Assembly: GCA_947497245.1 (NCBI GenBank)
Contig: CANMFO010000001.1
Span: 1,550,001 to 1,614,000, forward strand
Source: an uncultured Flavobacteriaceae bacterium
GTDB taxonomy: Bacteria; Bacteroidota; Bacteroidia; Flavobacteriales; Flavobacteriaceae
Direction of reading: 5' to 3'
DNA length: 64,000 bases
Under the pieces are notes generated by a model. The model was not told the origin of the DNA. It ran no database searches and saw only the letters and a program-made list of their open reading frames with translations. The position numbers and the translations under genes are program-made. Shown piece after piece: positions 10,692 to 25,336 of this stretch; position 1 is the stretch's first letter, and the number at the start of each line of letters is the position of its first letter.

Positions 10692-11813
10692 ATGAAAAAT
10701 AGTGTGCGACTCATTTATATATTCGTTGTAACGTTCCATTTATCTTGTGCGCAAGATTCTGAAAATCAGGTTGATACACCTTCGGAAATTCCCTTCAATG
10801 CGGAGCTTTTAATCGATGAGCTACAGATTCCGTGGGGTTTTACCTTCCTTCCTGATGGCAGCATGCTCATTAGTGAAAAATCAGGGGAATTGATCCATTA
10901 TGAAGCGGGAAAAAAGACCATGGTCGCCAATGCCCCGGAAATCTATGCTAGGGGCCAGGGCGGACTGCTCGATCTGGAGCTTCATCCAGATTATGACAAC
11001 AATGGCTGGATCTATATTACCTACTCTTCATCCGAAGGTGGGGAAAAGGGAGGAAACACCGCATTGATGCGCGCAAGGTTAAGGGATAATTCTTTGATAG
11101 ACAATGAGTTACTTTACAAAGCCGTGCCCAATACCACAAAAGGCCAACACTTTGGTTCCAGAATTGAATTCGATAACGAGGGATATGTATACTTCTCCGT
11201 GGGAGATCGCGGCAATCGGGATGTCAATCCTCAAGACGTTACCAAGGACGGGGGCAAAATTTACAGATTGATGGATGACGGAAAAATACCTGAAGACAAT
11301 CCCTTTGTGGGAACCGATGGTGCCAAAACAGCGGTTTTCAGCTATGGCCATCGGAATCCCCAGGGATTGGTAAAAAACCCGGAAACCGGAGCGATTTGGA
11401 ACCATGAGCACGGACCCCGGGGCGGGGATGAACTAAATATCGTCAAAAAGGGGGCGAATTTTGGATGGCCCGTTATCACCTACGGTATCAACTACAGCGG
11501 GACCCCGATTACGGATAAGACCGAAATGGAAGGTATGGAACAGCCCATCCACTATTGGTTACCGAGCATTGCCCCCAGTGGAATGGCATTTGTGACCTCC
11601 GATAACTACCTGGGCTACAAGGGCAATCTCTTGGTGGGTTCTTTGGCCTTTCAGTATTTGGAACGACTGGTACTGGACGGGAACAAAGTGGTAAAACGGG
11701 AAAAGCTTATGGCCGACATTGGACGTGTGAGAGAAGTAAAGGAAGGTCCCGATGGGCTGATCTATGTGGCCGTCGAAGGCAAGGGAATCTATAAATTGGT
11801 GCCCAAGGCGTAA
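10692..11813 (+). CDS. PQQ-dependent sugar dehydrogenase (glucose/sorbosone dehydrogenase family), lipoprotein
   Basis: A 373-aa six-bladed beta-propeller oxidoreductase of the soluble aldose dehydrogenase (GSDH/YliI) family, which oxidises sugars or related compounds with pyrroloquinoline quinone. The signal peptide ends in a lipobox (FHLSCAQ, Cys at residue 19), so the enzyme is probably anchored in the outer or inner membrane facing the periplasm. Family motifs are present in order: PWGFTFLPDGSMLISEKSG, GGLLDLELHPDY, QHFGSRIEFD with VYFSVGDRG, FSYGHRNPQGL, and HEHGPRGGDELN with GANFGWP. A small c-type cytochrome follows 11 nt later and is the likely electron acceptor. Whether PQQ is made or scavenged cannot be judged, as no pqq genes lie here. 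The exact sugar is unknown. Confidence 0.88.
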   Translation: MKNSVRLIYIFVVTFHLSCAQDSENQVDTPSEIPFNAELLIDELQIPWGFTFLPDGSMLISEKSGELIHYEAGKKTMVANAPEIYARGQGGLLDLELHPDYDNNGWIYITYSSSEGGEKGGNTALMRARLRDNSLIDNELLYKAVPNTTKGQHFGSRIEFDNEGYVYFSVGDRGNRDVNPQDVTKDGGKIYRLMDDGKIPEDNPFVGTDGAKTAVFSYGHRNPQGLVKNPETGAIWNHEHGPRGGDELNIVKKGANFGWPVITYGINYSGTPITDKTEMEGMEQPIHYWLPSIAPSGMAFVTSDNYLGYKGNLLVGSLAFQYLERLVLDGNKVVKREKLMADIGRVREVKEGPDGLIYVAVEGKGIYKLVPKA

Positions 11814-11824
11814 TCGTAAGCTTG

Positions 11825-12226
11825 ATGAAGATATTTCTTGCTACTTATCTTGCCTTGGTAATTGGTTTGGCGCTCCTCCTGTTCAAAGACCCTGCCCTAG
11901 AGGAAAGTATGCAACGCGGCAGTGAAATCTATGCGGATTTTTGTGTTACCTGCCATTTGGAAAAAGGGGAAGGTGTCGCAGGTACATTTCCTCCACTGGC
12001 CAATTCGGACTATTTGATGGGAAATCGGGAAGCCAGCATCCGCGGTGTCAAATACGGTCAAAAAGGGGAGTTGGTGGTCAATGGGGTTACCTACAACAAT
12101 GTAATGGGCCCCCTGGGACTCGAAGATGAAGAAGTCGCGGACGTCATGAACTTTATCCTCAATTCTTGGGGAAACAGCTCCGACAGGATGGTCACCCTGG
12201 AAGAAGTGGAGGCGATAAAAAAATAG
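11825..12226 (+). CDS. c-type cytochrome (single haem)
   Basis: A 133-aa exported monohaem cytochrome c. An N-terminal hydrophobic segment (IFLATYLALVIGLALLLF) acts as signal or anchor, followed by the haem-binding CVTCH motif and GTFPPLANSDYL. A distal Met ligand is plausible in VMGPLG. The ATG at 11825 is preferred over the in-frame TTG three bases upstream. It lies immediately downstream of the PQQ-type dehydrogenase in the same direction, so it probably passes that enzyme's electrons to the respiratory chain. That role is inferred from position, though such pairs are known. Confidence 0.88.
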   Translation: MKIFLATYLALVIGLALLLFKDPALEESMQRGSEIYADFCVTCHLEKGEGVAGTFPPLANSDYLMGNREASIRGVKYGQKGELVVNGVTYNNVMGPLGLEDEEVADVMNFILNSWGNSSDRMVTLEEVEAIKK

Positions 12227-12316
12227 GACGCGCTTAAAAATCCCCTTAGTGTTCCAGAAGTACCGCCATCCCCGTCGGGAGCGGACCGCTGACCATTCTT
12301 TTATTGCACTTGGATC

Positions 12317-13138
12317 TCAGTTCGCTTTTTCCTTCCCGTTCTCCAAGGTCGCCTTTACGGATCCATGTTTTTTAAGCAGTCTTTCGGCCTCTTCGTAATC
12401 CACGCCCAACCCTTCCATAACGTAGCGCGTGCCCCGATCTACCAACTTGGTATTGCTCAATTGCATGTTCACCATTTTATTGCCCTTGACCCTTCCAATC
12501 TTGATCATTAGCGCAGTGGAGATCATATTGAGCACCAATTTTTGTGAAGTACCGCTTTTCATACGGGTGCTTCCCGTAACGAACTCGGGGCCTACGTTCA
12601 CTTCTATGGGAATGTCCGAAGCCCTTGCCAAGGGAGATCCAGGATTGTTGGTTATGCCCGCTGTCAACAATCCGTTTTTTTTCGCATCGGCAATTCCCCC
12701 TAAAACGTAAGGTGTCGTACCAGAGGCCGCAATTCCCACCAGTACATCGTTGGAGTTGATATCATGCTCCATCAAATCCTTCCATGCCTGCGCCCCGTCA
12801 TCTTCCGCATGTTCGACCGACTTTCTAATGGCAATATCGCCCCCGGCAATGAGACCAACTACCCGGGTATGGGGCATTCCGTAGGTCGGTGGTATCTCGG
12901 AAGCATCCAAGATTCCCAATCGACCACTGGTACCGGCACCAATATAAAACAATCTTCCGCCCTTGCGGAAACGTTCGGCCAGGGCATCGACCAATTGCGT
13001 GATTTGGGGAATGGCCAGGGAAACGGCCTCAGCCACGGTCTTGTCCTCTCGGTTCATAGCACCGAGGATATCAGTGGTATCCATTTGTTCCAGATGGTCA
13101 TGCTTAGAGGGGGTTTCCGTAATTTTGATATAATCCAT
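12317..13138 (-). CDS. murQ: N-acetylmuramic acid 6-phosphate etherase
   Basis: MurQ cleaves the lactyl ether of MurNAc-6-phosphate to give GlcNAc-6-phosphate and D-lactate, in the cytoplasm. The 273-aa protein has the SIS-fold signature GAGTSGRLGILDASE, where E81 corresponds to the catalytic Glu of the LDA-x-E motif, and the later TGSTRMKSGTSQKLVLN signature. Length is normal for the family. The start chosen is ATG at 13138 (MDYIKITETP). A longer reading to 13192 adds 18 residues that do not resemble the family. It lies downstream of the DeoR-type regulator on the same strand and diverges from the operon carrying NagB, AmpG, NagZ and AnmK, which supply its substrate pathway. Confidence 0.95.
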   Translation of the reverse strand: MDYIKITETPSKHDHLEQMDTTDILGAMNREDKTVAEAVSLAIPQITQLVDALAERFRKGGRLFYIGAGTSGRLGILDASEIPPTYGMPHTRVVGLIAGGDIAIRKSVEHAEDDGAQAWKDLMEHDINSNDVLVGIAASGTTPYVLGGIADAKKNGLLTAGITNNPGSPLARASDIPIEVNVGPEFVTGSTRMKSGTSQKLVLNMISTALMIKIGRVKGNKMVNMQLSNTKLVDRGTRYVMEGLGVDYEEAERLLKKHGSVKATLENGKEKAN

Positions 13139-13225
13139 GCTTTGTTTTTGCGCTTTATAAGGTTTTCTTTTTGACTCGAATATGGTGTTCAATGGTTTCC
13201 GTATCTTCGGCTTGACCCAACTGCA

Positions 13226-13975
13226 TCACAGCAGACGAATATCATGGTCGCGAAAGAGGTTCAAAAGGTTGTTTTCCGGATCCAGCTCTGTTACTATGGT
13301 GTTTATGGCATTGATATCACAGGTTTTATACCGATGTTGGGAATTCAATTTTTCGGAAATGCACAAGAGCACCGTCTTCTTAGAGGCCTTGATGACCGCC
13401 TTTTTCAATTGTACGATATCCCAATCAAATTCGGTCAATCCATATAGGGAATCGACATATCCCGTACCGATAAAACTATAGTCGACCTTGATTTCCGATA
13501 ATTGGTGAATGGCGTTGGGGCCAATGGAGATCTGGGCGTCCTTTGAAATGTTTCCCCCAATAAAAATCACTTCCACATTGGGTTTGGCCAACAGTTCAAA
13601 GGCAACCGGAAGGCTCAGTGTAAAACAGGTCAGTTGCAAATTGACCGGAAGCAAACGGGCCATTTCAAGGCAAGTGGTGCCCCCATCAATAAAAATAACG
13701 CCGCCATCCTTTAGCAGGGACATCGCCTTTTCCGCAATTTTGATTTTCTCATCCAGTGCATAGATATTCTCATTTCTGGCACTATGACTGGTAAATCCCA
13801 AAGAAATGGCCCCGCCGTGGACCTTTCGAAGTTTGTTGTCCGCATCGAGCTCTTTGACATCGCGTCGGACCGTATCGATAGAGACATCCAGGGTCTCAGC
13901 GATATCGGTCAGGAGTACCCTGTTATGGAGGGCCACCTCGTTTAAAATTGCTCGTTGCCGTTCTTCCTTTAACAT
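13226..13975 (-). CDS. DeoR-family transcriptional regulator
   Basis: A 249-aa repressor of the DeoR/GlpR type. An N-terminal helix-turn-helix begins MLKEERQRAILNEV and contains LTDIAETLDVSIDTVRRD and LRKVHGGA, the DeoR signature. The C-terminal part is the DeoRC sensor domain (VIFIDGGTTCLEMARLLP, VIFIGGNIS). These regulators usually sense phosphosugars. Start is ATG at 13975; the open frame runs to 14107 but the extra 44 residues are hydrophobic, non-family sequence and overlap the promoter region. The gene precedes murQ and diverges from the nagB operon, with matched inverted repeats between them, so it very likely controls amino-sugar recycling. The effector could be GlcNAc-6-P or GlcN-6-P (inference). 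Confidence 0.9.
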   Translation of the reverse strand: MLKEERQRAILNEVALHNRVLLTDIAETLDVSIDTVRRDVKELDADNKLRKVHGGAISLGFTSHSARNENIYALDEKIKIAEKAMSLLKDGGVIFIDGGTTCLEMARLLPVNLQLTCFTLSLPVAFELLAKPNVEVIFIGGNISKDAQISIGPNAIHQLSEIKVDYSFIGTGYVDSLYGLTEFDWDIVQLKKAVIKASKKTVLLCISEKLNSQHRYKTCDINAINTIVTELDPENNLLNLFRDHDIRLL

Positions 13976-13996
13976 AAGACCTGCTTTACCAGAAAG

Positions 13997-14004
13997 CAAA
14001 TATA
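13997..14004 (-). promoter_or_regulatory. -7 box of the deoR-murQ transcript
   Basis: TATATTTG on the minus strand, a full match to TAnnTTTG, 21 nt before the regulator start. No TTG lies at the usual distance, but the inverted-repeat arm at 14021-14030 occupies the -33 region, so a bound repressor would block this promoter. Confidence 0.55.
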
Positions 14005-14020
14005 GAAAATAAATCTGTAT

Positions 14021-14083
14021 GCCGTTTTTTACAGTTTTATAGAATTTTAGAATTTGAAATATGTTAAAAAAGCAAAAAACGGC
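14021..14083. promoter_or_regulatory. Candidate operator: inverted repeat between deoR and nagB
   Basis: Two perfect 10-nt arms in opposite orientation, GCCGTTTTTT (14021-14030) and AAAAAACGGC (14074-14083), separated by 43 nt in the shared intergenic region. A second imperfect palindrome, TTGCA-N6-TGCAA, lies at 14092-14107 and overlaps the -33 region of nagB. Paired sites flanking divergent promoters fit autoregulation by the DeoR-type protein through looping. Binding itself is inferred. Confidence 0.5.
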
Positions 14084-14124
14084 AAAATAAATTGCAAAAA
14101 GCTGCAAGTTGTTGATTTTTTACA

Positions 14125-14132
14125 TACATTTG
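14125..14132 (+). promoter_or_regulatory. -7 box of the nagB operon
   Basis: TACATTTG, a full match to the Bacteroidota -7 consensus, 31 nt before the nagB start codon. The -33 element is unclear: TTG triplets at 14109 and 14112 are closer than the usual 17-23 nt. Confidence 0.55.
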
Positions 14133-14163
14133 TCCCGTTGAATTAAATTTAAATCACTAAAAA

Positions 14164-16107
14164 ATGGCCGAAGCATCCACAAAACCTAAGATGATGAACT
14201 ATCCTACCGATGAAGAATCCAAGAAATTTGAAAAAATAAATACCGTTGTCCACAACAGTTCGCAAGAAGCTTCGTTCTTTGTTGCCAACGAGATTGCCGA
14301 GCTTATACGCCAACGGCAAAAACAAGGAAAAACGGCCGTATTGGGACTTGCCACCGGATCTACCCCGACCAAGGTCTATGATTTTCTAGTGAAGTTTCAC
14401 AAGGAAGAAGGGCTGAGCTTCAAAAATGTGATCACCTTCAACCTGGACGAATACTTTCCCATGGAACCGGATTCCATCCACAGCTACGTCCGTTTCATGA
14501 ACGAACACCTGTTCGACCACATCGATGTCAAAAAAGAGAACATCAATATTCCCGACGGTACTTTGGAAAAAGAGGATGTTCGTGAGTTTTGCAGCGAATA
14601 CGAACGGAAAATAGAGGCCGCTGGAGGCATTGACATCCAAATCTTGGGTATCGGTAGGACAGGGCATATCGGTTTTAACGAACCGGGGTCTTCCCTTAAA
14701 AGCAAGACCCGAATGGTCCGATTGGACCGCGTGACCCGATTGGATGCCGCGAGCGACTTTTTCGGACTGGAAAATGTTCCTTCAAAGGCACTGACAATGG
14801 GTGTTGGCTCCATTATGGCGGCCAAGCGCATCATTTTAATGGCTTGGGGAGAGGGCAAGGCGGGAATCATCAAACAGGCAGCCGAAGGCCAGATTCGTGA
14901 ATCTGTTCCGGCCACTTTCCTACAGCACCATGAGAATTGCGATTTCATCATAGACCATGCCGCTGCATCGGCCCTCACCCGCGTTTGCACACCTTGGTTG
15001 ACCAGTGAGTGCGATTGGACCGAGAACCTCATCAAAAAGGCCACCATTTGGCTCTCCGAAAAACTCGACAAGGCCATACTAAAACTGACCAACGAAGATT
15101 ATAACGAACACGGAATGGGGAGCCTCGTGGCCGAGATCGGTTCTGCAGAGCACATTAACCTAAAAGTGTTCAACCACCTACAACGTACGATTACGGGATG
15201 GCCCGGCGGAAAGCCAAACGCAGACGATAGCAGCCGTCCGGAACGGAAGGACCCCTATCCAAAAACTTCCCTGATCTTTAGTCCGCACCCCGATGATGAT
15301 GTCATTTCTATGGGAGGTACCCTATTGCGATTGGTCGACCAGGGCCACGAGGTGCATGTTGCCTATCAGACTTCAGGAAATATAGCGGTATTTGATGACG
15401 AAGTAATCCGATTTATGGACTTTGCCACGGACATACAGGAAGGGAATGCCGCGCTTCAGGAGCAATTCAAAGAGGTTAGGGAATTTTTGAGCAATAAATC
15501 CCCCGGAGAAGTCGATAGCCCCGAAATACAACAGTTCAAAGGACTGATCAGGAAAGGAGAGGCACTGGCCGCTTGCCGCTATTGCGGAGTTGCCGAAAAA
15601 AATGCACACTTTCAAAACCTACCGTTTTATGAAACGGGAACGGTAAAGAAAAACCCGCATTCCGAGGCGGATGTGCAGTTGACCTACGATCTTTTGCAAA
15701 AGGTAAGACCGCACCAGATCTTTGCGGCGGGAGATCTTTCGGATCCCCATGGTACCCACCGGGTGTGTCTCCAGATCATTTATGAAGCTGTCGATCGTTT
15801 GGTCAAGGAAGGAGCCGATTGGATCGACGATTGCTACCTTTGGTTGTATCGGGGCGCATGGCAGGAATGGGACATAGCCGATATGGAAATGACCGTTCCC
15901 ATCGGCCCCAAAGACATGCAACGGAAGAAGAATGCCATATTCAAGCACCAATCCCAAAAGGATGCCGCCATGTTTCCGGGAAATGACGAAAGGGAATTTT
16001 GGCAGCGGGCGGAACAGCGCAACAAGGAAACGGCCCGAAAGTACAATGCACTTGGTATGGCGGAGTACGAGGCCATGGAAGGATTTGTGCGGTACATATT
16101 CAATTAA
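14164..16107 (+). CDS. nagB: Glucosamine-6-phosphate deaminase fused to a PIG-L/LmbE-type deacetylase
   Basis: A 647-aa cytoplasmic two-domain protein. Residues about 30-300 form NagB, which converts glucosamine-6-P to fructose-6-P and ammonia: FNLDEYFPMEPDSIHSY holds the catalytic Asp, and GIGRTGHIGFNEPGSSL holds the catalytic His and Glu. In E. coli the residue two before that His is Asp; here it is Thr. Residues about 365-640 form a PIG-L/LmbE domain with its zinc site intact: HPDDD at 375-379 and DPHGTH at 527-532. This 640-aa architecture is common in Bacteroidota and is usually annotated only as NagB. The second domain could deacetylate GlcNAc-6-P, replacing NagA, which is absent here. 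It heads a seven-gene operon divergent from the DeoR regulator. Confidence 0.93.
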   Translation: MAEASTKPKMMNYPTDEESKKFEKINTVVHNSSQEASFFVANEIAELIRQRQKQGKTAVLGLATGSTPTKVYDFLVKFHKEEGLSFKNVITFNLDEYFPMEPDSIHSYVRFMNEHLFDHIDVKKENINIPDGTLEKEDVREFCSEYERKIEAAGGIDIQILGIGRTGHIGFNEPGSSLKSKTRMVRLDRVTRLDAASDFFGLENVPSKALTMGVGSIMAAKRIILMAWGEGKAGIIKQAAEGQIRESVPATFLQHHENCDFIIDHAAASALTRVCTPWLTSECDWTENLIKKATIWLSEKLDKAILKLTNEDYNEHGMGSLVAEIGSAEHINLKVFNHLQRTITGWPGGKPNADDSSRPERKDPYPKTSLIFSPHPDDDVISMGGTLLRLVDQGHEVHVAYQTSGNIAVFDDEVIRFMDFATDIQEGNAALQEQFKEVREFLSNKSPGEVDSPEIQQFKGLIRKGEALAACRYCGVAEKNAHFQNLPFYETGTVKKNPHSEADVQLTYDLLQKVRPHQIFAAGDLSDPHGTHRVCLQIIYEAVDRLVKEGADWIDDCYLWLYRGAWQEWDIADMEMTVPIGPKDMQRKKNAIFKHQSQKDAAMFPGNDEREFWQRAEQRNKETARKYNALGMAEYEAMEGFVRYIFN

Positions 16108-16134
16108 GGGCCATCCAAACTTCAAGATAAAAGA

Positions 16135-17076
16135 ATGAATGTAGCGGTAGCCCAATTTCAACCCAAAGATGGGGACAAGGAGTACAACCTTTCCGTGATA
16201 AGGGAACTGACAAAAAGGGCCAAAACGGAAGGGGCCGATGTCATCAGCTTCCATGAAATGTGTGTTACCGCATATACATTTACAAAAGATCTCGGGCTGG
16301 AGGAAATCACGGAGCTTGCCGAGAACGTCCCCAATGGGGAGAGCACTCGGCAGCTGATCCAGATCTCGACCGAATTTGATATCCCTATCCTGGCCGGTTT
16401 GGTGGAAAAGGATCAAAATGCCATCTACAATACCTATCTCTGTGTCACAAAAGATGGGGTCTTGGCCAAGTACCGCAAACTGCATCCTTTTATCAGCAAA
16501 CACATGTCCCCGGGCAATGAATATGTAGTGTTCGATCTTTTGGGATGGAAATGCGGGATTTTGATCTGTTATGACAACAATGTGGTTGAAAACGTAAGGG
16601 CCACGGCTATTTTGGGAGCAGAGGTAATCTTTGCGCCCCACGTAACCGGCTGTACACCCTCCGCAATGCCAGGAAGAGGCTATGTCGACCACAAACTATG
16701 GGAAAACAGGAAAAACGACCCCGTTTCGCTGCGCCTTGAATTTGACGGCCCCAAAGGGAGAAGATGGCTAATGCGATGGTTGCCGGCAAGGGCCTATGAC
16801 AATGGCGTGTACTACGCGTTCACCAACCCCATAGGGTATGATGGGGAGCATCTAAAAAATGGCAATGCCATGGTCATCGACCCATTCGGGGAAGTACTGT
16901 CTGAAGTGAGGACCTTTGACGATGCCATTGCGATTTCAAAAATATGCAAGGACAAAATACCGCTTTCGGGAGGTTGGCGATATAAAAATGCAAGAAGGCC
17001 CGAGTTGTACAGAGAAATCATCGGACAGCCACATCAACCCCATCTAAAACCCGTTTGGATGTCTATGGAAAAATAG
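16135..17076 (+). CDS. Carbon-nitrogen hydrolase (nitrilase superfamily), substrate unknown
   Basis: A 313-aa cytoplasmic amidase or nitrilase-like enzyme. The Glu-Lys-Cys triad is present: Glu in SFHEMCVTAY, Lys in KYRKLHPF and Cys in ILICYDNN, with the following VRATAILGAEVIFAPHVTG strand typical of the family. No signal peptide. It starts 27 nt after nagB, and the lipoprotein gene starts 20 nt after it, so it is inside the recycling operon. The superfamily includes N-carbamoylputrescine amidase, omega-amidase and beta-ureidopropionase, and the sequence seen here does not settle which reaction. Its position suggests hydrolysis of an amide produced during cell-wall turnover, but this is inference. 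Confidence 0.85.
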   Translation: MNVAVAQFQPKDGDKEYNLSVIRELTKRAKTEGADVISFHEMCVTAYTFTKDLGLEEITELAENVPNGESTRQLIQISTEFDIPILAGLVEKDQNAIYNTYLCVTKDGVLAKYRKLHPFISKHMSPGNEYVVFDLLGWKCGILICYDNNVVENVRATAILGAEVIFAPHVTGCTPSAMPGRGYVDHKLWENRKNDPVSLRLEFDGPKGRRWLMRWLPARAYDNGVYYAFTNPIGYDGEHLKNGNAMVIDPFGEVLSEVRTFDDAIAISKICKDKIPLSGGWRYKNARRPELYREIIGQPHQPHLKPVWMSMEK

Positions 17077-17096
17077 ACGTTACCCCTTTTGGACCA

Positions 17097-18623
17097 ATGA
17101 TAAAAAAAATCTGTTTTCTTTTGGTGTTCGGGGCTACTTCCTGTGGCGTCTTTAAGCCTATCCCCCAACCCAAGACAGAATTCAGGGGTGTATGGATCGC
17201 CACCGTGGTGAACATCGATTGGCCGAAAAATGGAAAGGACGCCGTCGAAAAACAAAAAGCGGATTATTTGGCCATCCTGGATTTCTACAAAAATCTGAAT
17301 TTCAATGCGGTTATCGTGCAGATACGGGATGCGGGAGATGCCTTTTATAGGTCCACCTATGCCCCTTGGTCCCGTTTTTTGACGGGAAAAGAGGGCGAGG
17401 CCCCCAAGACGAAAGGGGATCTGCTCCCCTGGATGATCAATGAAGCCCACGGGCGGGGTATGGAATTCCATGCTTGGCTCAACCCCTATCGCGCCACCTT
17501 TGACCTAAGAACGGAAATCTTGAGCCCCATCCACGATTTCCACCTCCATCCCGAATGGATGATCAAATACGGCGAAAAGTTCTATTATGATCCCGGTTTG
17601 CCGCAGGTCAGAAATCGTATGGTTCAAATTATCGACGAACTGGTCACCGCATATGACATTGATGCCATTCATTTCGACGATTATTTCTATCCCTATACTA
17701 TCAGGGACGAGGTCTTCCATGATTCCCTGTCCTATACCTACCATCGCTTGCCCGATCAGTCCCTGGAAGATTGGAGAAGGAGCAATATCGATTCCCTGGT
17801 CCAAAACACCCATAAGGTGGTAAAATCAAAAAAACCCTGGGTACAGTTGGGAATAAGTCCGTTCGGGGTTTGGAAGAACAACACCACGGACCCAAGGGGC
17901 TCGGATACCAAAGCCGGCCAGACCACCTACGAAGATCTTTACGCGGATCCGTTACTGTGGATGGAAAAAGGTTGGTTGGACTACCTCGTTCCCCAGGTAT
18001 ATTGGAGTATGGACCTCCCAGTGGCTTCACATAAAAAGATTGTGGGTTGGTGGGCCATGAACGCCACCAATACGAATCTGTACATCGGAAACGGCACCTA
18101 CAAAATCCGGAACAACGGCGACACCGCCTGGGACGATAAAAAGGAACTTCCCGACCAACTGAACTTGGCCAGACATACGGACGAGGTCATGGGCAACGTA
18201 TTCTTCAGTGCAAAAAGCCTGATGGGAAAGCATCGCGATGTAGTCGATTTTATGAAAAGAAAATACTACAAAAGGGCAGCCCTACCCCCTATTTCGCCCC
18301 ACATCACTGGCTCCGCAGTAGGATCCCCGGAACTTGTGTCATCGCAACAGGACAAGGATTCCATCCAATTCCATTTCAATTCGTTGGAAGGGCACCGCTA
18401 TGTACTGGCCTATCCCTCTGGAAAAAGAGAAAAAAGCGATTATCCCATTAAAAGGCTTTTGCTAAAAAAACCCATTTACCAAGGGAACCGTGTATCGCTG
18501 CCTATCGATGGGTTGATGGGCAAGAACCATATCGCCCTTACCTTTATCGATTTTTACGGAAGGGAATCCACTCCTATAGTAGTACATTTGAACCAATCAA
18601 AACCATATGATACAGAAAAATAA
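17097..18623 (+). CDS. GHL10/DUF187-type glycoside-hydrolase-like lipoprotein (YngK-like)
   Basis: A 508-aa lipoprotein: MIKKICFLLVFGATSCG carries a lipobox with Cys16. The TIM-barrel domain (about residues 27-390) shows RGVWIATVVNIDWP, VIVQIRDAGDAFY, FHAWLNPYRATFD, AIHFDDYFYPY, LGISPFGVW and LVPQVYWSM, the sequence pattern of the glycosidase-like GHL10 (former DUF187) family, with the Asp pair in HFDDYFYP as candidate catalytic residues. A small beta-rich C-terminal domain follows. The start at 17097 is chosen because the lipoprotein signal begins there; the frame is open 42 nt further upstream. The stop overlaps the next gene by 17 nt. Being outside the cytoplasm and in this operon, it may act on peptidoglycan fragments before import. 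The substrate is unproven. Confidence 0.85.
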   Translation: MIKKICFLLVFGATSCGVFKPIPQPKTEFRGVWIATVVNIDWPKNGKDAVEKQKADYLAILDFYKNLNFNAVIVQIRDAGDAFYRSTYAPWSRFLTGKEGEAPKTKGDLLPWMINEAHGRGMEFHAWLNPYRATFDLRTEILSPIHDFHLHPEWMIKYGEKFYYDPGLPQVRNRMVQIIDELVTAYDIDAIHFDDYFYPYTIRDEVFHDSLSYTYHRLPDQSLEDWRRSNIDSLVQNTHKVVKSKKPWVQLGISPFGVWKNNTTDPRGSDTKAGQTTYEDLYADPLLWMEKGWLDYLVPQVYWSMDLPVASHKKIVGWWAMNATNTNLYIGNGTYKIRNNGDTAWDDKKELPDQLNLARHTDEVMGNVFFSAKSLMGKHRDVVDFMKRKYYKRAALPPISPHITGSAVGSPELVSSQQDKDSIQFHFNSLEGHRYVLAYPSGKREKSDYPIKRLLLKKPIYQGNRVSLPIDGLMGKNHIALTFIDFYGRESTPIVVHLNQSKPYDTEK

Positions 18624-19887
18624 ATGGGCCTGGGCCTGGGTCCCCGTGCTCTATTTTACCCAAGGCCTGCCCTACGTACTGGTGGTGGCCGTATCGGTTA
18701 TCATGTACAAGAAACTAGGGGTCAGCAACGCGGATATAGGGCTGTACACCAGTTGGCTGTACCTGCCCTGGGTGATCAAGCCCTTGTGGAGTCCGTTTGT
18801 GGATTTGAAAAGCACCAAGCGCAACTGGTTCTTGCTCATGCAATTGATTGTGTCATTAGCATTGTTGGGGGTCGGGCTCACCTTGCCCACGAATATCTTT
18901 TTTGTCACTTCCCTGGCCTGTTTTTGGATGGCGGCCTTTGCCTCGGCCACCAACGATATTGCTGCGGACGGTTACTATATGATAGGACTTACGGAGGAGA
19001 AACAGTCTTTTTTCGTGGGGCTTAGAAGCACCTTCTATAAACTATCCACCGTCACCGGACAGGGCCTTTTGGTCATTTTGGCCGGTTTTCTGGAAAATCA
19101 TTTTGGCGATAATACCAAAGCATGGTCCTACACCATGATATGCGCCGCCTTTTTAATGCTATTGCTCACCCTATCCAATTTTTTTGTTACCCCAAAATTT
19201 GAAACTTCCCGGGCAATCGCCCTGGACAAACCAAAGAGTTTTTTGGAAGTCTTCGTTTCCTTTTTTAAAAAACCCGGTATTTGGTTGGCATTGGCCTTCA
19301 TTCTGCTTTTCAGATTGGGCGAGTCACAGCTGGTCAAAATGGCTGCTCCCTTTTTACTCGACCCCGTCGCTGAAGGCGGATTGGGGTATTCAACATCGGA
19401 AGTCGGTACGATCTACGGAACCATCGGCGTGATCATGCTCACGGTCGGCGGGATTCTCGGGGGAATTCTTATTTCCAAACACGGACTAAAAAAATGGATG
19501 CTGCCCATGTTGCTTGCCCTAAACGCACCCAATGCCCTGTACGCCCTGTTGGCACTGACCAAGACCACGAGCATCATAGCGGTAACGGGAACCGTGATGA
19601 TCGAGCAATTCGGTTATGGTTTTGGTATTGCTGGCTTCATGGTCTATCTCATCTACATCGCGGAGGGAAAGTCCAAAACCTCGCACTATGCGATTGCCAC
19701 CGGCTTCATGGCCCTGGGCATGATGCTACCAGGGCTTATTAGCGGTTTCATGCAAGAGTGGTTGGGTTACGGCGGCTTTTTTGTATGGGTCGTGATTGCC
19801 GCTTTTCCGGCCATTCTACTATTAAAATATATTTCCTATCCGGCCGATTTTGGCAAAGCGAAAAATGAAGATGTGGAACATGTTTGA
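18607..19887 (+). CDS. AmpG-like muropeptide permease (MFS/PAT family)
   Basis: A 426-aa inner-membrane transporter with about 12 hydrophobic segments. The start WVPVLYFTQGLPYVLV and the segment WLYLPWVIKPLWSPFVD are typical of the AmpG/PAT branch of the major facilitator superfamily, which imports GlcNAc-anhydroMurNAc peptides by proton symport. FASATNDIAADGYY is a further AmpG-type signature. It overlaps the upstream lipoprotein gene by 17 nt and the downstream NagZ gene by about 23 nt, so translation is probably coupled. Its neighbours NagZ, AnmK and MurQ handle exactly the products AmpG would bring in, which strengthens the call over a generic MFS transporter. Confidence 0.87.
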   Translation: MIQKNKWAWAWVPVLYFTQGLPYVLVVAVSVIMYKKLGVSNADIGLYTSWLYLPWVIKPLWSPFVDLKSTKRNWFLLMQLIVSLALLGVGLTLPTNIFFVTSLACFWMAAFASATNDIAADGYYMIGLTEEKQSFFVGLRSTFYKLSTVTGQGLLVILAGFLENHFGDNTKAWSYTMICAAFLMLLLTLSNFFVTPKFETSRAIALDKPKSFLEVFVSFFKKPGIWLALAFILLFRLGESQLVKMAAPFLLDPVAEGGLGYSTSEVGTIYGTIGVIMLTVGGILGGILISKHGLKKWMLPMLLALNAPNALYALLALTKTTSIIAVTGTVMIEQFGYGFGIAGFMVYLIYIAEGKSKTSHYAIATGFMALGMMLPGLISGFMQEWLGYGGFFVWVVIAAFPAILLLKYISYPADFGKAKNEDVEHV

Positions 19888-21487
19888 TTACCAAAGGAAG
19901 AAGACCGACCTCAGCCTTTTCGAAAAAGTGGGCCAACTGTTTATGCCCGCAGCCTTTGTCAACGATACCGAGGCCGAAGTTCGGGAATTGGAAAAGCAGA
20001 TTCGGGAACAACATGTGGGCGGGCTCTGCTTTTTCCATAGCCGCGCAAGTGCGGCCACCAACTATGAGGGAAAAAAGGAAGTCGTTTACAATGCAAGGAG
20101 TTTTGACACCCTCAGAAACCTTATCGTTCGCTATCAACGGGCGGCCAAGTACCCCCTATTGATCGCTATCGATGCCGAATGGGGGTTGGCCATGCGTATT
20201 GAAAATACGCCCCAGTACCCCTACGCCATCACATTGGGAGCGGTCCAAGACCATCCCGAGCTCCTTTATGAGGTAGGAAAAAACATTGCCCGGGACTGTA
20301 GGGCCGCGGGCATACATTGGAATTTGGCCCCCGTGGTCGATATCAACAACAATCCGGACAATCCGGTCATTGGTTACCGTTCCTTTGGCGAGGATAAATG
20401 GGAGGTGGCCCAAAAGGCACTGGCTTTTGTCAAAGGAACCCAGAGCGAAGGGGTTTTGACCAGTATCAAGCACTTTCCAGGGCATGGGGATACGGCCGTT
20501 GATTCGCACTTGGGACTCCCGTTGATCGACAAATCCAAAGAAGCACTGTTGGACAATGAACTCCATCCTTTCCAACGACTGATCGATGAGGGGGTCGATT
20601 CGGTAATGGTGGGGCATTTGTCCGTACCTTCCCTGGCGGCGGGAAAATTGATTTCCTCCAGTATTTCCAAAGATATTATCAAAGGGGTTTTAAGAAATGA
20701 AATGGGCTTCGAAGGGGTGGTCATTTCCGATGCGCTCAATATGCACGCCGTGTCAAGGGAATACCCTGTCAAAGGGGAACTGGAATGGTTGGCATTTGAC
20801 GCGGGGAACGATGTGCTCTGCTTTGCGGAACATACGCGGGAGGGCATCGCGACCATTCTTCAAAAAGCGACCGAAGCACAGATCAATGAAAGCTTTGAGC
20901 GCGTATGGGCCCTTAAGGAAAAAGCAATGGGGAACCCTGGGGGCAAAACGGTCCCGACTTTGTCGGATGCCGATAGTTTGAACGCAAGACTCGCCCGGGA
21001 GTGCTTGACCCGTTTAGTGGGAAAAGCGTCGGACTTGGTCGATTTTAAAAGTAAGGGGTTTGTTGGATTGTCCATGGTCCAAAGCGGGGAAAATCCTTTT
21101 TTTGCCTCTATTCGCACAAAAAAAGCTTTTCCGGGAATTTCCAACACCGATTATACCCTTTCGGAACTTGAAAACCGGCTAAAAAGTGAAGCCAATATCC
21201 TTTTGGCACTCTATCCACCGCAGGTAAAGCCTACGGCCAACTTTGGCCTTTCGGCCACCGAACTGAACTTTATAAACTCGCTTTTGGAGACAAAAAACGT
21301 GGTGCTTTATCTTTTTGGGAATCCATATGTCCTTAAGCTTTTAAATATTGGAACGACCCGGACCACGGTTGTTGCGTATCAAAATTTGGAGGCGTTCCAA
21401 CACCTTGCCGCTGAGCATTTTTTGGGTAATTTTAAGGCCAAGGGGAAACTCCCCGTCCAGACAAAAAACAAGCTGCCAAATGAGTGA
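19865..21487 (+). CDS. nagZ: Cytoplasmic beta-N-acetylglucosaminidase NagZ (GH3), two-domain form
   Basis: A 540-aa GH3 enzyme that removes GlcNAc from imported GlcNAc-anhydroMurNAc. KHFPGHGDT (residues 202-210) is the NagZ hallmark loop with the His-Asp acid/base pair, and D289 in VISDALNMHA is the nucleophile. The first 345 residues match the E. coli-sized catalytic domain. About 190 further residues form a second domain, as in the longer Bacillus type. There is no signal peptide, so it works in the cytoplasm, consistent with the AmpG-like gene it overlaps. ATG at 19865 is preferred; a TTG at 19850 and ATGs at 19871 and 19880 are alternatives. Its last 8 nt overlap the methyltransferase gene. 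Confidence 0.92.
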   Translation: MKMWNMFDYQRKKTDLSLFEKVGQLFMPAAFVNDTEAEVRELEKQIREQHVGGLCFFHSRASAATNYEGKKEVVYNARSFDTLRNLIVRYQRAAKYPLLIAIDAEWGLAMRIENTPQYPYAITLGAVQDHPELLYEVGKNIARDCRAAGIHWNLAPVVDINNNPDNPVIGYRSFGEDKWEVAQKALAFVKGTQSEGVLTSIKHFPGHGDTAVDSHLGLPLIDKSKEALLDNELHPFQRLIDEGVDSVMVGHLSVPSLAAGKLISSSISKDIIKGVLRNEMGFEGVVISDALNMHAVSREYPVKGELEWLAFDAGNDVLCFAEHTREGIATILQKATEAQINESFERVWALKEKAMGNPGGKTVPTLSDADSLNARLARECLTRLVGKASDLVDFKSKGFVGLSMVQSGENPFFASIRTKKAFPGISNTDYTLSELENRLKSEANILLALYPPQVKPTANFGLSATELNFINSLLETKNVVLYLFGNPYVLKLLNIGTTRTTVVAYQNLEAFQHLAAEHFLGNFKAKGKLPVQTKNKLPNE

Positions 21488-22142
21488 TGGGATACTAGCC
21501 TCCTGGAGAAAGAATGCCGACGAATGGGTGCGCGTCTTAGCCGCGGACCGCATTCCGTCCCGACGGCATACGAACAGGGCCATCCTGGAAGTGATCAAAG
21601 CCCAGGCCGCCGATAACGTACTGGATTGTGGCTGTGGGGAAGGATGGTTGACACGGGCCATCTCCGACATGGGAAAGACCGCTGTCGGTACCGATGCCAT
21701 CGACACCCTTATAGAACATGCGGAGAAAACCGGCAAAGGGCAATACCACCAACTCAGTTATGAAACAATCATGGAAGGCACCCTCATTCCTGGAAACCCC
21801 TTCGACCTAGCGGTATTCAACTTTTCGCTATACTTGGAGGATGGGGTGATTCCCTTGCTGAAAAGCATTAAGAAAATGCTGATGGAAAACGGGAAGATCC
21901 TCGTTCAGACCCTGCATCCTTTTTTCCTGATGCAGCAAGGGTTGGACTATCGGAGCCAATGGATCTCGGATTCTTGGAAGGGATTGCCCGGAAATTTTGA
22001 GGATGGGCACCCCTGGTACGCCCGGACCTTCGAAGATTGGCACCAGGTTTTTACCGATTGCGGACTCCGCCCCAAAACTGTCAAAGAAGTTTCCAACGAA
22101 CATGGAGAACCCCTCTCGGTACTCTTTGTCCTAACCCAATAA
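21480..22142 (+). CDS. Class I SAM-dependent methyltransferase
   Basis: A 220-aa methyltransferase. Motif I is VLDCGCGEGWLTRAI with the acidic residue of motif II in TDAIDTLIEHAE, then FDLAVFNFSLYLED (motif IV region) and LMENGKILVQTLHPF (motif VI region). The start is set by the ATGAGTGA overlap with the nagZ stop codon; the upstream open frame lies wholly inside nagZ and is a shadow. Three bases separate its stop from anmK. The substrate is not recognisable. Tight coupling on both sides means it is made together with the recycling enzymes, but no methylation step is known in that pathway. Confidence 0.85.
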   Translation: MSDGILASWRKNADEWVRVLAADRIPSRRHTNRAILEVIKAQAADNVLDCGCGEGWLTRAISDMGKTAVGTDAIDTLIEHAEKTGKGQYHQLSYETIMEGTLIPGNPFDLAVFNFSLYLEDGVIPLLKSIKKMLMENGKILVQTLHPFFLMQQGLDYRSQWISDSWKGLPGNFEDGHPWYARTFEDWHQVFTDCGLRPKTVKEVSNEHGEPLSVLFVLTQ

Positions 22143-22145
22143 GAT

Positions 22146-23222
22146 ATGAAAAAGTACAAAGTCATCGGTCTAATGTCGGGCACCTCCTTGGATGGCTTGG
22201 ACCTCGCCTATTGTCATATCTGGAAGATGGATGATACGTGGGAGTTTGAAATCAAGGAAACCAAAAGTATTTCCTATTCTCCAGAAATGCGGGCCGAGTT
22301 GAAGGGATCTATTTTTCTTTCGGCAGATGGACTGCTCTCATTAAACAATGGCTATGGGACCTGGTTGGGCGAACAGGTGAAGCGATTTATCAGGCAAAGG
22401 TCCCTGGCCGTGGATTGCATCGCCAGTCACGGCCATACCACACATCACCAACCGGAAAGCGGGCTTACCTATCAAATAGGGTCCGGACAGCATTTGGCAA
22501 ATGCCAGCGGCCATAAGGTAGTCTGTGATTTTAGGACCAACGACGTCGCTTTGGGCGGGCAGGGCGCTCCTTTGGTGCCCATTGGCGACAGCCTGTTCTT
22601 TGGGCAGTACAGCTTCTGTCTCAACCTTGGGGGTATCAGCAATGTATCCTTTGAGTCAAAGGGAAAGCGTATTGCCTACGACATAGGCCTGGCCAATATG
22701 ATTCTGAACCACATCACCCGAAAAATCGGTATGGACTATGATGCGGGTGGAAAAATGGCCCGAAGCGGTACCTTGAACCCCGATATGTTGCGGCGGCTCA
22801 ATTCGCTCGAATATTATCTGCTTCCCCATCCGAAGTCTATCGGCTACGAATGGTTTGTGGAAGAGGTAGCGCCCATAGTGGACAGCACGGATGACAGCAC
22901 GGAAAATTTGCTCCATACCGCCATCCACCATATCTGTGAAAAAGTCGCCCTACAAATCGACCGGAACGTCAAAAAAGCATACCGGACCCTATTTGTGACC
23001 GGAGGAGGGGCATTGAACGAATTTCTAATTGAGACTTTACAGGAAAAGTTGGGGACGGGGACCAAGGTGGTCACTCCGTCCAAAACCCTTATCGAATTCA
23101 AGGAAGCTTTGGTCTTCGCCTTGATGGGGGTATTGCGGCTAGAACAGGAAATCAACGTTCTCCGTTCGGTCACCGGGGCAAAAAGAGATTCTTCAAGTGG
23201 TGTTTTGTACCTGCCCAATTGA
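22146..23222 (+). CDS. anmK: Anhydro-N-acetylmuramic acid kinase
   Basis: AnmK opens the 1,6-anhydro ring of anhMurNAc while phosphorylating it with ATP, giving MurNAc-6-P for MurQ. The 358-aa protein begins with the family signature GLMSGTSLDGLDLAY (nucleotide loop), and carries ASHGHTTHHQP, FRTNDVALGGQGAPLVP with the catalytic Asp, LNLGGISNVSF, and LFVTGGGALNEFL near the C terminus. It has no signal peptide and full length for the family. As the last gene of the operon it is followed by 76 nt without a clear terminator before the acetate-uptake genes. Confidence 0.95.
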   Translation: MKKYKVIGLMSGTSLDGLDLAYCHIWKMDDTWEFEIKETKSISYSPEMRAELKGSIFLSADGLLSLNNGYGTWLGEQVKRFIRQRSLAVDCIASHGHTTHHQPESGLTYQIGSGQHLANASGHKVVCDFRTNDVALGGQGAPLVPIGDSLFFGQYSFCLNLGGISNVSFESKGKRIAYDIGLANMILNHITRKIGMDYDAGGKMARSGTLNPDMLRRLNSLEYYLLPHPKSIGYEWFVEEVAPIVDSTDDSTENLLHTAIHHICEKVALQIDRNVKKAYRTLFVTGGGALNEFLIETLQEKLGTGTKVVTPSKTLIEFKEALVFALMGVLRLEQEINVLRSVTGAKRDSSSGVLYLPN

Positions 23223-23298
23223 AGTTTACGGTACAAATGCCTATATTGGAATTCAAAGAACGAACAACATAGACCAGAACATCTAATACAACCAAAAA

Positions 23299-23559
23299 AT
23301 GTCAGACAAACAAAAAAAAGCATCGGCCTACTGGAGGGAAAACGTCCGCTATCTCTTTATTCTACTATCCATTTGGTTCGTTGTCTCCTACGGGGCGGGA
23401 ATCCTTTTCAAAGATGCCCTCAATACTATAAAAATTGGTGGTTTCGAGCTTGGTTTCTGGTTTGCCCAGCAAGGTTCCATCTATGTTTTTGTTATTCTCA
23501 TTTTTGTCTACGTACGGCTTATGAACAAACTGGACAAGAAATACGGCTTTGACGAATAG
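23299..23559 (+). CDS. DUF4212 small subunit of a sodium/solute symporter
   Basis: An 86-aa inner-membrane protein with two hydrophobic segments (YLFILLSIWFVVSYGAGILF and FWFAQQGSIYVFVILIFVYV) and a charged C-terminal tail ending in DKKYGFDE. This fits DUF4212 proteins, small partners encoded directly before solute symporters of the VC_2705 type. It lies 28 nt before the symporter, as expected. The exact role of the subunit is not known. Confidence 0.9.
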   Translation: MSDKQKKASAYWRENVRYLFILLSIWFVVSYGAGILFKDALNTIKIGGFELGFWFAQQGSIYVFVILIFVYVRLMNKLDKKYGFDE

Positions 23560-23587
23560 ATTTACCAACCTTTAACCAAAAAATAAT

Positions 23588-25300
23588 ATGACTGTTCAAA
23601 CATGGACGTACATTCTAGTCGGAATCACATTTGCACTATACATCGGTATTGCCATTTGGTCCCGGGCAGGTTCTACCAAAGAGTTTTATGTGGCCGGTGG
23701 GGGCGTTTCCCCTTTGGCCAACGGAATGGCCACAGCAGCGGACTGGATGTCGGCGGCGTCATTTATCTCCATGGCGGGAATCATTGCCTTTGCCGGTTAT
23801 GACGGTTCCGTATATCTGATGGGCTGGACGGGGGGCTATGTGCTCCTTGCCCTGCTTTTGGCCCCTTATCTTCGAAAGTTCGGGAAATTTACCGTACCCG
23901 ACTTCATTGGGGACCGTTACTATTCCAAGACCGCGCGGATCGTTGCCGTGATCTGTGCCCTAATCGTTTCGTTTACCTATGTGGCCGGTCAAATGCGGGG
24001 GGTCGGGGTCGTTTTCTCACGGTTCTTGGAAGTGGACATCAACACCGGGGTGGTCATCGGTATGGTGATCGTTCTGTTCTATGCCGTCTTGGGCGGAATG
24101 AAAGGCATCACCTATACACAAGTGGCCCAATACTGCGTTTTGATCTTTGCCTTTATGGTGCCCGCAATTTTTATTTCCATCCAAATGACGGGGAATCCGG
24201 TTCCCCAGTTGGGCATGGGTTCCACCATGAACGATGGATCGGGAGTGTATTTGTTGGATAAATTGAATGGCCTCTCCACCCAACTCGGGTTCGCCGAGTA
24301 TACGTCAGGGTCCAAAAGCACCATGGACGTTTTTGCGATTACCTTGGCCCTTATGGTAGGGACGGCCGGGCTTCCGCATGTTATCGTCCGTTTCTTTACG
24401 GTGAAACGGGTAAGGGATGCGCGCAAGTCTGCGGGACTGGCCCTTCTGTTAATCGCCATTTTATACACGACCGCTCCCGCCGTTGCCGTGTTCGCAAGGA
24501 CCAATATGATCAATACGGTGAGCGATCAGGAGTATGCCGAGATGCCGGAGTGGTTCAAAAACTGGGAGGAAACCGGTCTACTAAAATTCAACGACAAGAA
24601 CGGGGACGGAAAAATTCAATATGTGGCCGATGGGAAGCGCAACGAACTGGTGGTGGACAGGGACATCATGGTGTTGGCCAATCCAGAGATCGCGAACCTT
24701 CCGGCCTGGGTCATTGCCCTGGTAGCGGCAGGTGGACTGGCGGCCGCATTATCTACCGCTGCAGGATTGCTTCTGGTCATTTCTTCCTCGGTGTCCCATG
24801 ATTTGATCAAAAAGGTATTCGTGCCCAATATCACCGAAAAAGGGGAACTTTGGGCAGCAAGGGCAGCGGCCACAGTGGCGGTGGTGATCGCTGGCTACTT
24901 TGGCATCAATCCGCCCGGTTTTGTTGCGGCGGTGGTGGCCCTGGCCTTCGGACTGGCCGCTGCATCGTTCTTTCCAGCGATCGTCCTGGGAATCTTTTAT
25001 AAAAAAATGAACAAGGAGGGTGCCATTGCGGGCATGATCGTGGGTATTTCCCTAATGCTGTTTTACATGCTGAAATTTAAGTTTGGCATTTTTGACGGGG
25101 GAAAGGAAGCCGTGGCCGGTTTGAGCCAAGATTGGTGGTTTGGCATCTCCCCGGAAGGATTTGGAACAATCGCCATGCTTGTAAACTTCGCGGTATCGAT
25201 CATCGTGATGCAATTTACCGAAGCGCCCCCCAAAGCGGTGCAGGAGATTGTGGAGGACATTCGGATTCCCAGCGGTGCCGGAGAGGCCTCCGAACATTGA
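23588..25300 (+). CDS. Sodium:solute symporter (SSS family, acetate-permease-like large subunit)
   Basis: A 570-aa inner-membrane transporter of the SSS family with about 13 hydrophobic segments. SRAGSTKEFYVAGGGVSP, NGMATAADWMSAASFI and GLPHVIVRFFTVKRV are the core signatures shared with cation/acetate symporters of the ActP type. A hydrophilic insertion around residues 310-360 contains DKNGDGKIQYVADG, which resembles a Ca-binding loop. It follows its DUF4212 partner and precedes acetyl-CoA synthetase by 36 nt, so acetate or a related short acid is the likely substrate. Specificity is inferred from neighbours. Confidence 0.9.
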   Translation: MTVQTWTYILVGITFALYIGIAIWSRAGSTKEFYVAGGGVSPLANGMATAADWMSAASFISMAGIIAFAGYDGSVYLMGWTGGYVLLALLLAPYLRKFGKFTVPDFIGDRYYSKTARIVAVICALIVSFTYVAGQMRGVGVVFSRFLEVDINTGVVIGMVIVLFYAVLGGMKGITYTQVAQYCVLIFAFMVPAIFISIQMTGNPVPQLGMGSTMNDGSGVYLLDKLNGLSTQLGFAEYTSGSKSTMDVFAITLALMVGTAGLPHVIVRFFTVKRVRDARKSAGLALLLIAILYTTAPAVAVFARTNMINTVSDQEYAEMPEWFKNWEETGLLKFNDKNGDGKIQYVADGKRNELVVDRDIMVLANPEIANLPAWVIALVAAGGLAAALSTAAGLLLVISSSVSHDLIKKVFVPNITEKGELWAARAAATVAVVIAGYFGINPPGFVAAVVALAFGLAAASFFPAIVLGIFYKKMNKEGAIAGMIVGISLMLFYMLKFKFGIFDGGKEAVAGLSQDWWFGISPEGFGTIAMLVNFAVSIIVMQFTEAPPKAVQEIVEDIRIPSGAGEASEH

Positions 25301-25336
25301 ATTTTTGATTAATTTTAAGTACAAAGCATATAAAAC

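Follow-up and report, generated by a model that had tools for sequence, protein, structure and literature searches.

A predicted DeoR-controlled locus for salvage of peptidoglycan sugars in part of the Flavobacteriaceae

Described recycling systems and the window locus

In Escherichia coli, anhydro-muropeptides are recycled through AmpG, NagZ, AnmK, MurQ, NagA and NagB. Here we describe a nine-gene locus at positions 12317-23222 of a 64-kb stretch of DNA from an uncultured Flavobacteriaceae bacterium (contig CANMFO010000001.1 of assembly GCA_947497245.1); this whole stretch is called the window. The locus shares with E. coli the import and sugar-breakdown steps and the catabolic MurQ branch. 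Unlike in E. coli, the genes are clustered beside a DeoR gene, NagB is fused to a PIG-L type deacetylase, a GHL10 gene lies in the operon, and the genome has no LdcA match and no cytoplasmic-looking Amidase_2 protein.

The AmpG/MurTKQ cluster of Tannerella forsythia (Tanf_08345 to Tanf_08385) also comes from the Bacteroidota, comprises nine genes and contains AmpG and MurQ, with an AmpG that handles disaccharides (accessible parts of PMC5388701 and PMC7670621). According to the same part of PMC5388701, it further holds a xanthan lyase, two glycosyltransferases, a LytB-like protein, YbbC, MurT and MurK and is driven by GppX, whereas the window has AnmK, NagZ, GHL10, NagB-PIG-L and DeoR. The T. 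forsythia combination of MurT and MurK with MurQ does not occur among the nine genes, which include neither a symporter nor a ROK-type kinase. Cwp19 of the Gram-positive Clostridioides difficile shares the GHL10 catalytic domain; it bears CWB2 wall-binding motifs (PMC6016235, available text), whereas the window protein is lipoprotein-like and encoded in a salvage operon. The accessible part of PMC6987092 deals with a NagZ fusion that is secreted by an organism lacking AmpG; we set it aside as not comparable. Our literature search, which reached few subscription papers, found no published description of the present locus. It is a known pathway in a new modular arrangement, with two accessory modules.

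We consider it likely that this is a divergent locus, controlled by DeoR, that recovers the sugar backbone of peptidoglycan, largely in the form of disaccharide without peptide. Gene content and order, linkage counts, conserved operator-like repeats and absences in family searches are what we observed; each reaction is assigned from families established elsewhere, and the stripping of peptides before import is predicted. In the proposed route, the periplasmic GHL10 lipoprotein would cut glycan strands to the disaccharide of N-acetylglucosamine and anhydro-N-acetylmuramic acid (GlcNAc-anhydroMurNAc), which the AmpG-like permease would import. NagZ would then remove GlcNAc, AnmK would yield MurNAc-6-phosphate, and MurQ would convert this to GlcNAc-6-phosphate and D-lactate. 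The PIG-L half of the fusion would deacetylate the GlcNAc-6-phosphate before the NagB half deaminates it, giving fructose-6-phosphate. The nitrilase and the methyltransferase would be optional operon modules present in some lineages.

Conserved core and predicted regulation

A sequence-only reading of this DNA had proposed a nine-gene locus for salvage of peptidoglycan sugars. Every gene was recovered where it had been placed, and that interpretation is upheld. The open reading frame (ORF) list and Pfam/NCBIfam scans give two leftward genes on the minus strand (murQ and the DeoR regulator) and seven rightward genes on the plus strand: the NagB-PIG-L fusion, the nitrilase, GHL10, the AmpG-like major facilitator superfamily (MFS) permease, the GH3/NagZ-like gene, an S-adenosylmethionine (SAM) methyltransferase and AnmK. 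Neither Rfam nor a tRNA scan gave a hit in the window.

AnmK, MurQ and NagB-PIG-L each pass at least one curated model. The MurNAc-6-phosphate etherase gene murQ (12317..13138, minus) scores 372.6 bits with PRK05441 (cut-off 168) and falls just under TIGR00274 (301.2 bits, cut-off 302); its likely start is 13138, and the ORF can be extended to a TTG at 13192. The anhydro-N-acetylmuramic acid kinase gene anmK (22146..23222, plus, likely start 22146) reaches 513.9 bits with NF007144 (cut-off 436). The fusion of glucosamine-6-phosphate deaminase and PIG-L type deacetylase (14164..16107, plus) matches PRK02122 over its full length (1059.6 bits, cut-off 384), and FNLDEY, HPDDD and DPHGTH, which we take to be its active-site motifs, are invariant across 37 aligned rows. 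The DeoR-family regulator (13226..13975, minus) has PF08220 and PF00455 above cut-off, with a likely start at 13975 and a possible extension to a TTG at 14107. The permease (18607..19887, plus, likely start 18607) is named from a family match. The GH3 NagZ-like beta-N-acetylglucosaminidase (19880..21487, plus, likely start 19880) passes PF00933, has no signal peptide by eye and contains KHFPGHGDT, presumably the NagZ motif.

The operon had been described as tightly overlapping. From GHL10 onward this stands, with overlaps from the likely starts of 17 bp (GHL10/ampG), 8 bp (ampG/nagZ) and 8 bp (nagZ/methyltransferase) and a 3-bp gap before anmK. It does not describe the 27-bp gap between nagB and the nitrilase or the 20-bp gap between the nitrilase and GHL10.

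We compared the locus across a sample of 249 genomes of the family, its own included, in which anmK was found at E 1e-60 or better in 233. Sixty neighbourhoods were fetched (fetched loci are numbered with L and sampled genomes with G), the first forty-nine of which (L105-L153) belong to the family's 49 best anmK relatives, a choice that favours the type seen in the window; most family genomes with a less similar anmK lie outside this comparison. Within the fetched stretches, murQ, ampG, nagZ and anmK occur together in 40/49 loci, and the remaining nine have anmK alone or with few partners. Among the forty core loci, deoR and nagB-PIG-L are each present in thirty-eight, GHL10 in twenty-six, the methyltransferase in six and the nitrilase in five. 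Six genes appear to form a conserved core, with GHL10 the probable first cutter and the nitrilase and methyltransferase optional add-ons.

Some variation was seen within these operons. NagB-PIG-L in L105-L153 has two deep forms among the 37 rows, twenty-one of form A (over 70 per cent identity to the window) and sixteen of form B (about 55-59 per cent). Both keep the main motifs, and since they are intermixed on the neighbour-gene tree, one form has apparently displaced the other at this site on several occasions. L109 and L119 carry other gene pairs between nagZ and anmK, from which we conclude that the operon tolerates or collects cassettes. In L129, the gene behind nagB, where the window has its nitrilase, encodes a sugar-type MFS transporter (8520-9758) with weak similarity to GluP, FucP and NagP.

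The space between the two arms carries repeats. TATATTTG (13997..14004, minus) and TACATTTG (14125..14132, plus) are candidate -7 promoter boxes for the deoR-murQ and nagB-anmK arms, labelled with what we take to be the Bacteroidota consensus. Between them the pattern scan found three operator-like sites: GTAAAAAACGGCA (14020..14032, minus), a reverse copy with one mismatch, GCAAAAAACGGCA (14072..14084, plus) and GCAAAAAGCTGCA (14094..14106, plus), 22 bp from GCAAAAAACGGCA. The pattern, a degenerate one, occurs in all 36 deoR upstream regions found by start pattern (the window and thirty-five in L105-L155, including some second DeoR copies) and at least twice in 24 of them. These 36 regions of 200 bp hold 66 sites, two of them the window's, while all 51 loci L105-L155 hold 95 in 1,002,689 bases, thirty lying away from those deoR starts; the pattern was chosen after inspecting these regions, so this enrichment is descriptive. 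The independent part of the evidence is that the exact pattern occurs nowhere in the 64-kb window except at 14072 and 14094. Nor was it found within the 4-kb loci of two NagA-family genes in the same genome. DeoR is predicted to bind the recurring GCAAAAAACNGCA sites, which lie between the two candidate promoters, and would keep both arms repressed until it is bound by a sugar phosphate as inducer; co-transcription is likewise predicted. A promoter and terminator consensus scan of 12000-24000 gave 11 promoters against 14.6 expected and 24 terminators against 16.9 (sd 4.2) and was not used.

The probable first cut and the predicted fate of the peptides

The sequence-only reading had left three genes of the operon, including GHL10, without any known step, and had suggested for GHL10 a role as a periplasmic glycosidase. 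The gene (17097..18623, plus, likely start 17097) encodes a lipoprotein-like protein matching PF02638 at 227.1 bits (cut-off 27.9), a candidate lytic transglycosylase or muramidase. Matches at E 1e-60 occur in 45/249 family genomes, and coordinates were compared for 31 relatives at 43 per cent identity or above, the weaker rows at 35-39 per cent being taken as other GHL10 proteins. GHL10 lies within 10 kb of anmK in 27/31, and in 27/28 at 51 per cent identity or above; in other genomes, then, the predicted linkage is present. The exception among the 28 is G434, GHL10 and anmK are on separate contigs in G496 and G107, and the anmK linked to GHL10 in G021 is of a divergent type.

The closest solved protein is Cwp19 (PDB 5oq2; E 1.4e-96 over query residues 24-384), and E. 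coli DigH is presumably also a GHL10 protein. Cwp19 is a lytic transglycosylase that makes 1,6-anhydro-muropeptides (PMC6016235, accessible text), and DigH, a denuded-glycan hydrolase according to the available part of PMC12288456, is a further precedent. Because GHL10 is linked to anmK and Cwp19 is a published lytic transglycosylase, the window gene is no longer without a known step: it is probably a periplasmic, Cwp19-like lytic transglycosylase or muramidase that makes the first cut, in keeping with the glycosidase suggestion. Among 17 orthologue N-termini found by start pattern, twelve have a strict lipobox and the other five have, by eye, a cysteine after a hydrophobic stretch. No surface-export signal was visible by eye in these N-termini.

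We searched the window's own genome, given as 99.9 per cent complete, for the enzymes missing from the locus. A family search found no S66/LdcA match, and the one Amidase_2 protein has a lipoprotein-like N-terminus by eye, leaving no obvious cytoplasmic AmpD. Two NagA-family proteins (L093, L094) score above the curated cut-off; both have a signal-like hydrophobic N-terminus by eye and look exported, which is odd for a cytoplasmic enzyme. The sequence-only reading had listed AmgK/MurU, a separate NagA, AmpD and LdcA as absent. At the locus all are; genome-wide this holds for LdcA and for a cytoplasmic-looking AmpD, and does not extend to the two NagA-family proteins or to a candidate AmgK/MurU pair described below. 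The missing S66/LdcA, the lipoprotein-like Amidase_2 and the exported-looking NagA proteins together fit a salvage in which disaccharides lose their peptides before they enter the cytoplasm and the PIG-L half would serve there as deacetylase. In T. forsythia, AmpG reportedly takes mainly peptide-free disaccharides (accessible text of PMC7670621).

An alternative is classical recycling of peptide-bearing anhydro-muropeptides, in which the peptides are trimmed by an amidase and peptidases that belong to different families and are encoded elsewhere. E. coli AmpG carries disaccharide-peptides and that of T. forsythia may do so too (available parts of PMC7670621 and PMC5388701), and our search for peptide enzymes took in Amidase_2 and S66. 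Against it stand the lack of S66 and the lipoprotein-like character of the sole Amidase_2 in a nearly complete genome, and none of the nine window genes encodes a peptide enzyme. We regard classical recycling as unlikely.

Several points weigh against salvage of peptide-free disaccharide as we propose it. With the search limited to Amidase_2, a cytoplasmic amidase of another family may exist. Those Cwp19 products whose terminal MurNAc carries no substituent had reducing rather than anhydro ends (PMC6016235, accessible text); if GHL10 behaved likewise on denuded strands, it would release GlcNAc-MurNAc, which should not serve AnmK as a substrate and would need a kinase that the locus lacks. GHL10 is also missing from 14/40 core loci (in G434 it lies elsewhere), where another enzyme must serve. 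The names of the permease (TIGR00901, 187.5 bits against 350) and of the glucosaminidase (PRK05337, 149.2 bits against 207) fall under curated cut-offs, so that AmpG-like and NagZ-like express family membership plus context. The presence or absence of signal peptides was judged by eye throughout. When two mismatches were allowed, the operator scan gave 17 scattered sites in the window against 8.8 expected. In the own genome, the AmgK search returned five APH-family proteins above cut-off, one of them overlapping a nucleotidyltransferase gene (L101:1195-3188), a possible AmgK/MurU-like sugar-salvage pair. Finally, six less similar family anmK loci (L156-L161) contain no other window gene within the stretch, and three wider-group anmK loci (within L156-L164) contain none either; the arrangement is a property of part of the family.

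Nitrilase and methyltransferase as optional modules

The nitrilase-superfamily gene (16135..17076, plus) encodes an accessory protein with no signal peptide by eye. In a Pfam scan at E 0.01 its sole match is CN_hydrolase, and it passes no NCBIfam equivalog cut-off. Comparison with PDB 3ivz and 1j31, which we take to be the Pyrococcus nitrilase/PH0642, supports the CN_hydrolase family over residues 2-168. E41, K115 and C145, presumably the catalytic residues, are invariant in 24/24 aligned rows. The family is sporadic and distinct, and in our searches mostly found in Bacteroidota.

Matches at E 1e-60 occur in 14/249 family genomes. The nitrilase is linked to anmK in 5/13 family relatives and lies elsewhere in the other eight, so that linkage in other genomes bears out its place in the operon only in part. 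In the eight unlinked stretches the nitrilase is the only one of the nine window genes (G436, where anmK has no assigned place, was read over 14 kb of an 18-kb contig). We rejected the nitrilase as a substitute for AmpD on its family (CN_hydrolase only) and its poor linkage. The idea that it supplies a missing amidase fares no better: it has no amidase-family domain, most relatives lie elsewhere, and the pathway may need no peptide handling.

In the best 80 of 135 public nitrilase loci, many of which end at contig edges so that linkage is possibly undercounted, eleven have a window-locus gene near the nitrilase; of these, L047 has it near but outside one operon and L084 has the nagB fusion only. 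The other sixty-nine have none besides two weak matches of 26-27 per cent. The position within the operon varies: after nagB in the window, L118, L130, L105, L025, L073 and L075, between nagZ and anmK in L014 and L111, after anmK in L125, and, in L067, as the first gene directly behind the operator repeats. On a 92-row nitrilase tree, whose bootstrap is not fully settled, the 13 rows near window-locus genes need at least seven label changes. By a random-placement estimate, the linkage would arise with a probability of about 3e-9 (5/13) or about 2e-5 (3 events of 11, after our own grouping of related cases). With its varied positions, the changes on the tree and linkage above random, the nitrilase is best described as a roaming gene that has joined the locus repeatedly, not dedicated to the pathway yet drawn to it.

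Upstream, an AraC-family regulator directly precedes the nitrilase in 9/88 scored neighbourhoods (three of the nine Pfam-checked), and the operator pattern lies within 400 bp in 2/90 loci, L067 (in the operon) and L026 (a poor match). We sought steady neighbours that might point to function and found none besides AraC in those nine loci and one group in four others. In L065, L074, L083 and L090 the nitrilase adjoins a sugar-type MFS gene (4/4), a ROK kinase (3/4) and an upstream GH2 exo-glucosaminidase-like gene (3/4), a second amino-sugar-like setting.

There is perhaps an even chance that the protein is a mobile nitrogen-scavenging amidase or nitrilase, carried along by the operon but taking no part in the pathway. 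The eight family relatives away from anmK, the sixty-nine public loci (many of them contig-cut) and the AraC-family neighbours agree with this; linkage well over random placement, repeated capture on the tree and the first position in L067 speak against it. A dedicated deamidation, acting for instance on stem-peptide or amino-sugar derivatives that are amidated and originate in foreign walls, would make sense of repeated capture at different positions and of the invariant residues. Its substrate is purely presumed, however, 35/40 core loci have no nitrilase and none of the nine window genes is a peptide enzyme, and we hold this explanation doubtful.

The SAM methyltransferase (21480..22142, plus, likely start 21480) is accessory and assigned by Pfam. 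It is rare, with matches at E 1e-20 in 10/249 family genomes, and a wider sample of 394 other genomes of the class gave one relative (36 per cent identity) whose neighbours were uninformative. The nearest structure, PDB 3e8s, aligns over nearly the whole length (E 3.3e-40) and is a putative SAM methyltransferase, given in the hit without a function; the window gene, unlike it, adjoins anmK. The same proximity recurs in 6/9 relatives, 8-188 bp upstream of anmK, as the idea of conserved linkage had predicted.

With regard to METHYLTRANSFERASE and importer, a SusC/SusD pair and a second DeoR gene lie between nagB and GHL10 in L106 and L135, the pair and its DeoR take nagB's place in L113, and L146 has a SusD match only. 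The L106 SusC passes TIGR04056; its SusD passes Pfam SusD narrowly (26.6 against 23.1 bits) and no NCBIfam model, and the L167 SusD scores alike. SusD occurs in 4/49 family loci and the methyltransferase in 6/49, and all four SusD loci carry the methyltransferase (one-sided Fisher 7e-5, with related genomes not independent). In the two best unlinked cases, L167 and L168, both fetched for the methyltransferase, this gene immediately follows DeoR-SusC-SusD. L047, which came in by way of its nitrilase, has the order SusC-SusD-methyltransferase-AnmK-sodium symporter-MurQ. Four loci with the methyltransferase (L025, L067, L130 and L147) speak against the tie, as SusC/SusD is missing from the examined stretch, and so do L166 and L170, weaker relatives in which no SusC/SusD was seen. 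The methyltransferase nonetheless probably belongs with a SusC/SusD importer module, the best clue to its role. This tie could not be seen from the window, which has no match to the L106 pair at E 1e-15 and so lacks the SusC/SusD pair of a polysaccharide utilisation locus.

These importers raise the alternative that the locus chiefly feeds on foreign cell walls, as peptidoglycan utilisation instead of self-recycling. The SusC/SusD genes upstream of GHL10 inside the locus, the arrangements in L047, L167 and L168 and the complete path to fructose-6-phosphate would all suit it. SusD is found in so few of the family loci, however, and is lacking with SusC in the window, and GHL10 N-termini bear no visible surface-export signal; we think it rather unlikely as the chief function. 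A related reading is that some Flavobacteriaceae have a true peptidoglycan utilisation locus (a dedicated outer-membrane importer of the SusC/SusD kind, GHL10 as lytic transglycosylase, AmpG, NagZ, AnmK, MurQ and a partner methyltransferase acting on an imported compound derived from the wall), that the window's methyltransferase serves such an importer elsewhere in the genome and that the nitrilase, captured repeatedly, is a module for amidated material from foreign walls. This we offer as a tentative suggestion, itself on the unlikely side. Salvage of the sugar backbone, mostly as peptide-free disaccharide, is the reading we prefer.

Other genes flank the locus. Beyond anmK, 23588-27244 holds a sodium:solute symporter (from 23588; matched in 20/60 fetched neighbourhoods) and then an acetyl-CoA synthetase-type enzyme, perhaps for acetate recapture after deacetylation. 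Upstream of murQ (10692-12226) lie a gene resembling PQQ-type (pyrroloquinoline quinone) sugar dehydrogenases, matched in 41/60 neighbourhoods, and one for a small cytochrome c, matched in 28/60. Beside the locus (1975-10554, minus) lies a gene for a repetitive protein of 2859 amino acids, surface-type by eye, and several relatives have a similar N-terminus in the same place.

The locus offers a concrete model, open to test, for the uptake and consumption of wall sugars by flavobacteria. It names an enzyme for the first cut, predicts a repressor together with its operator and predicts that peptides are not handled. The possible replacement of NagA by PIG-L and the repeated capture of the nitrilase are biochemical questions for single purified enzymes. 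Judging by the variants with an importer and a methyltransferase, this machinery may also act on the walls of other bacteria.

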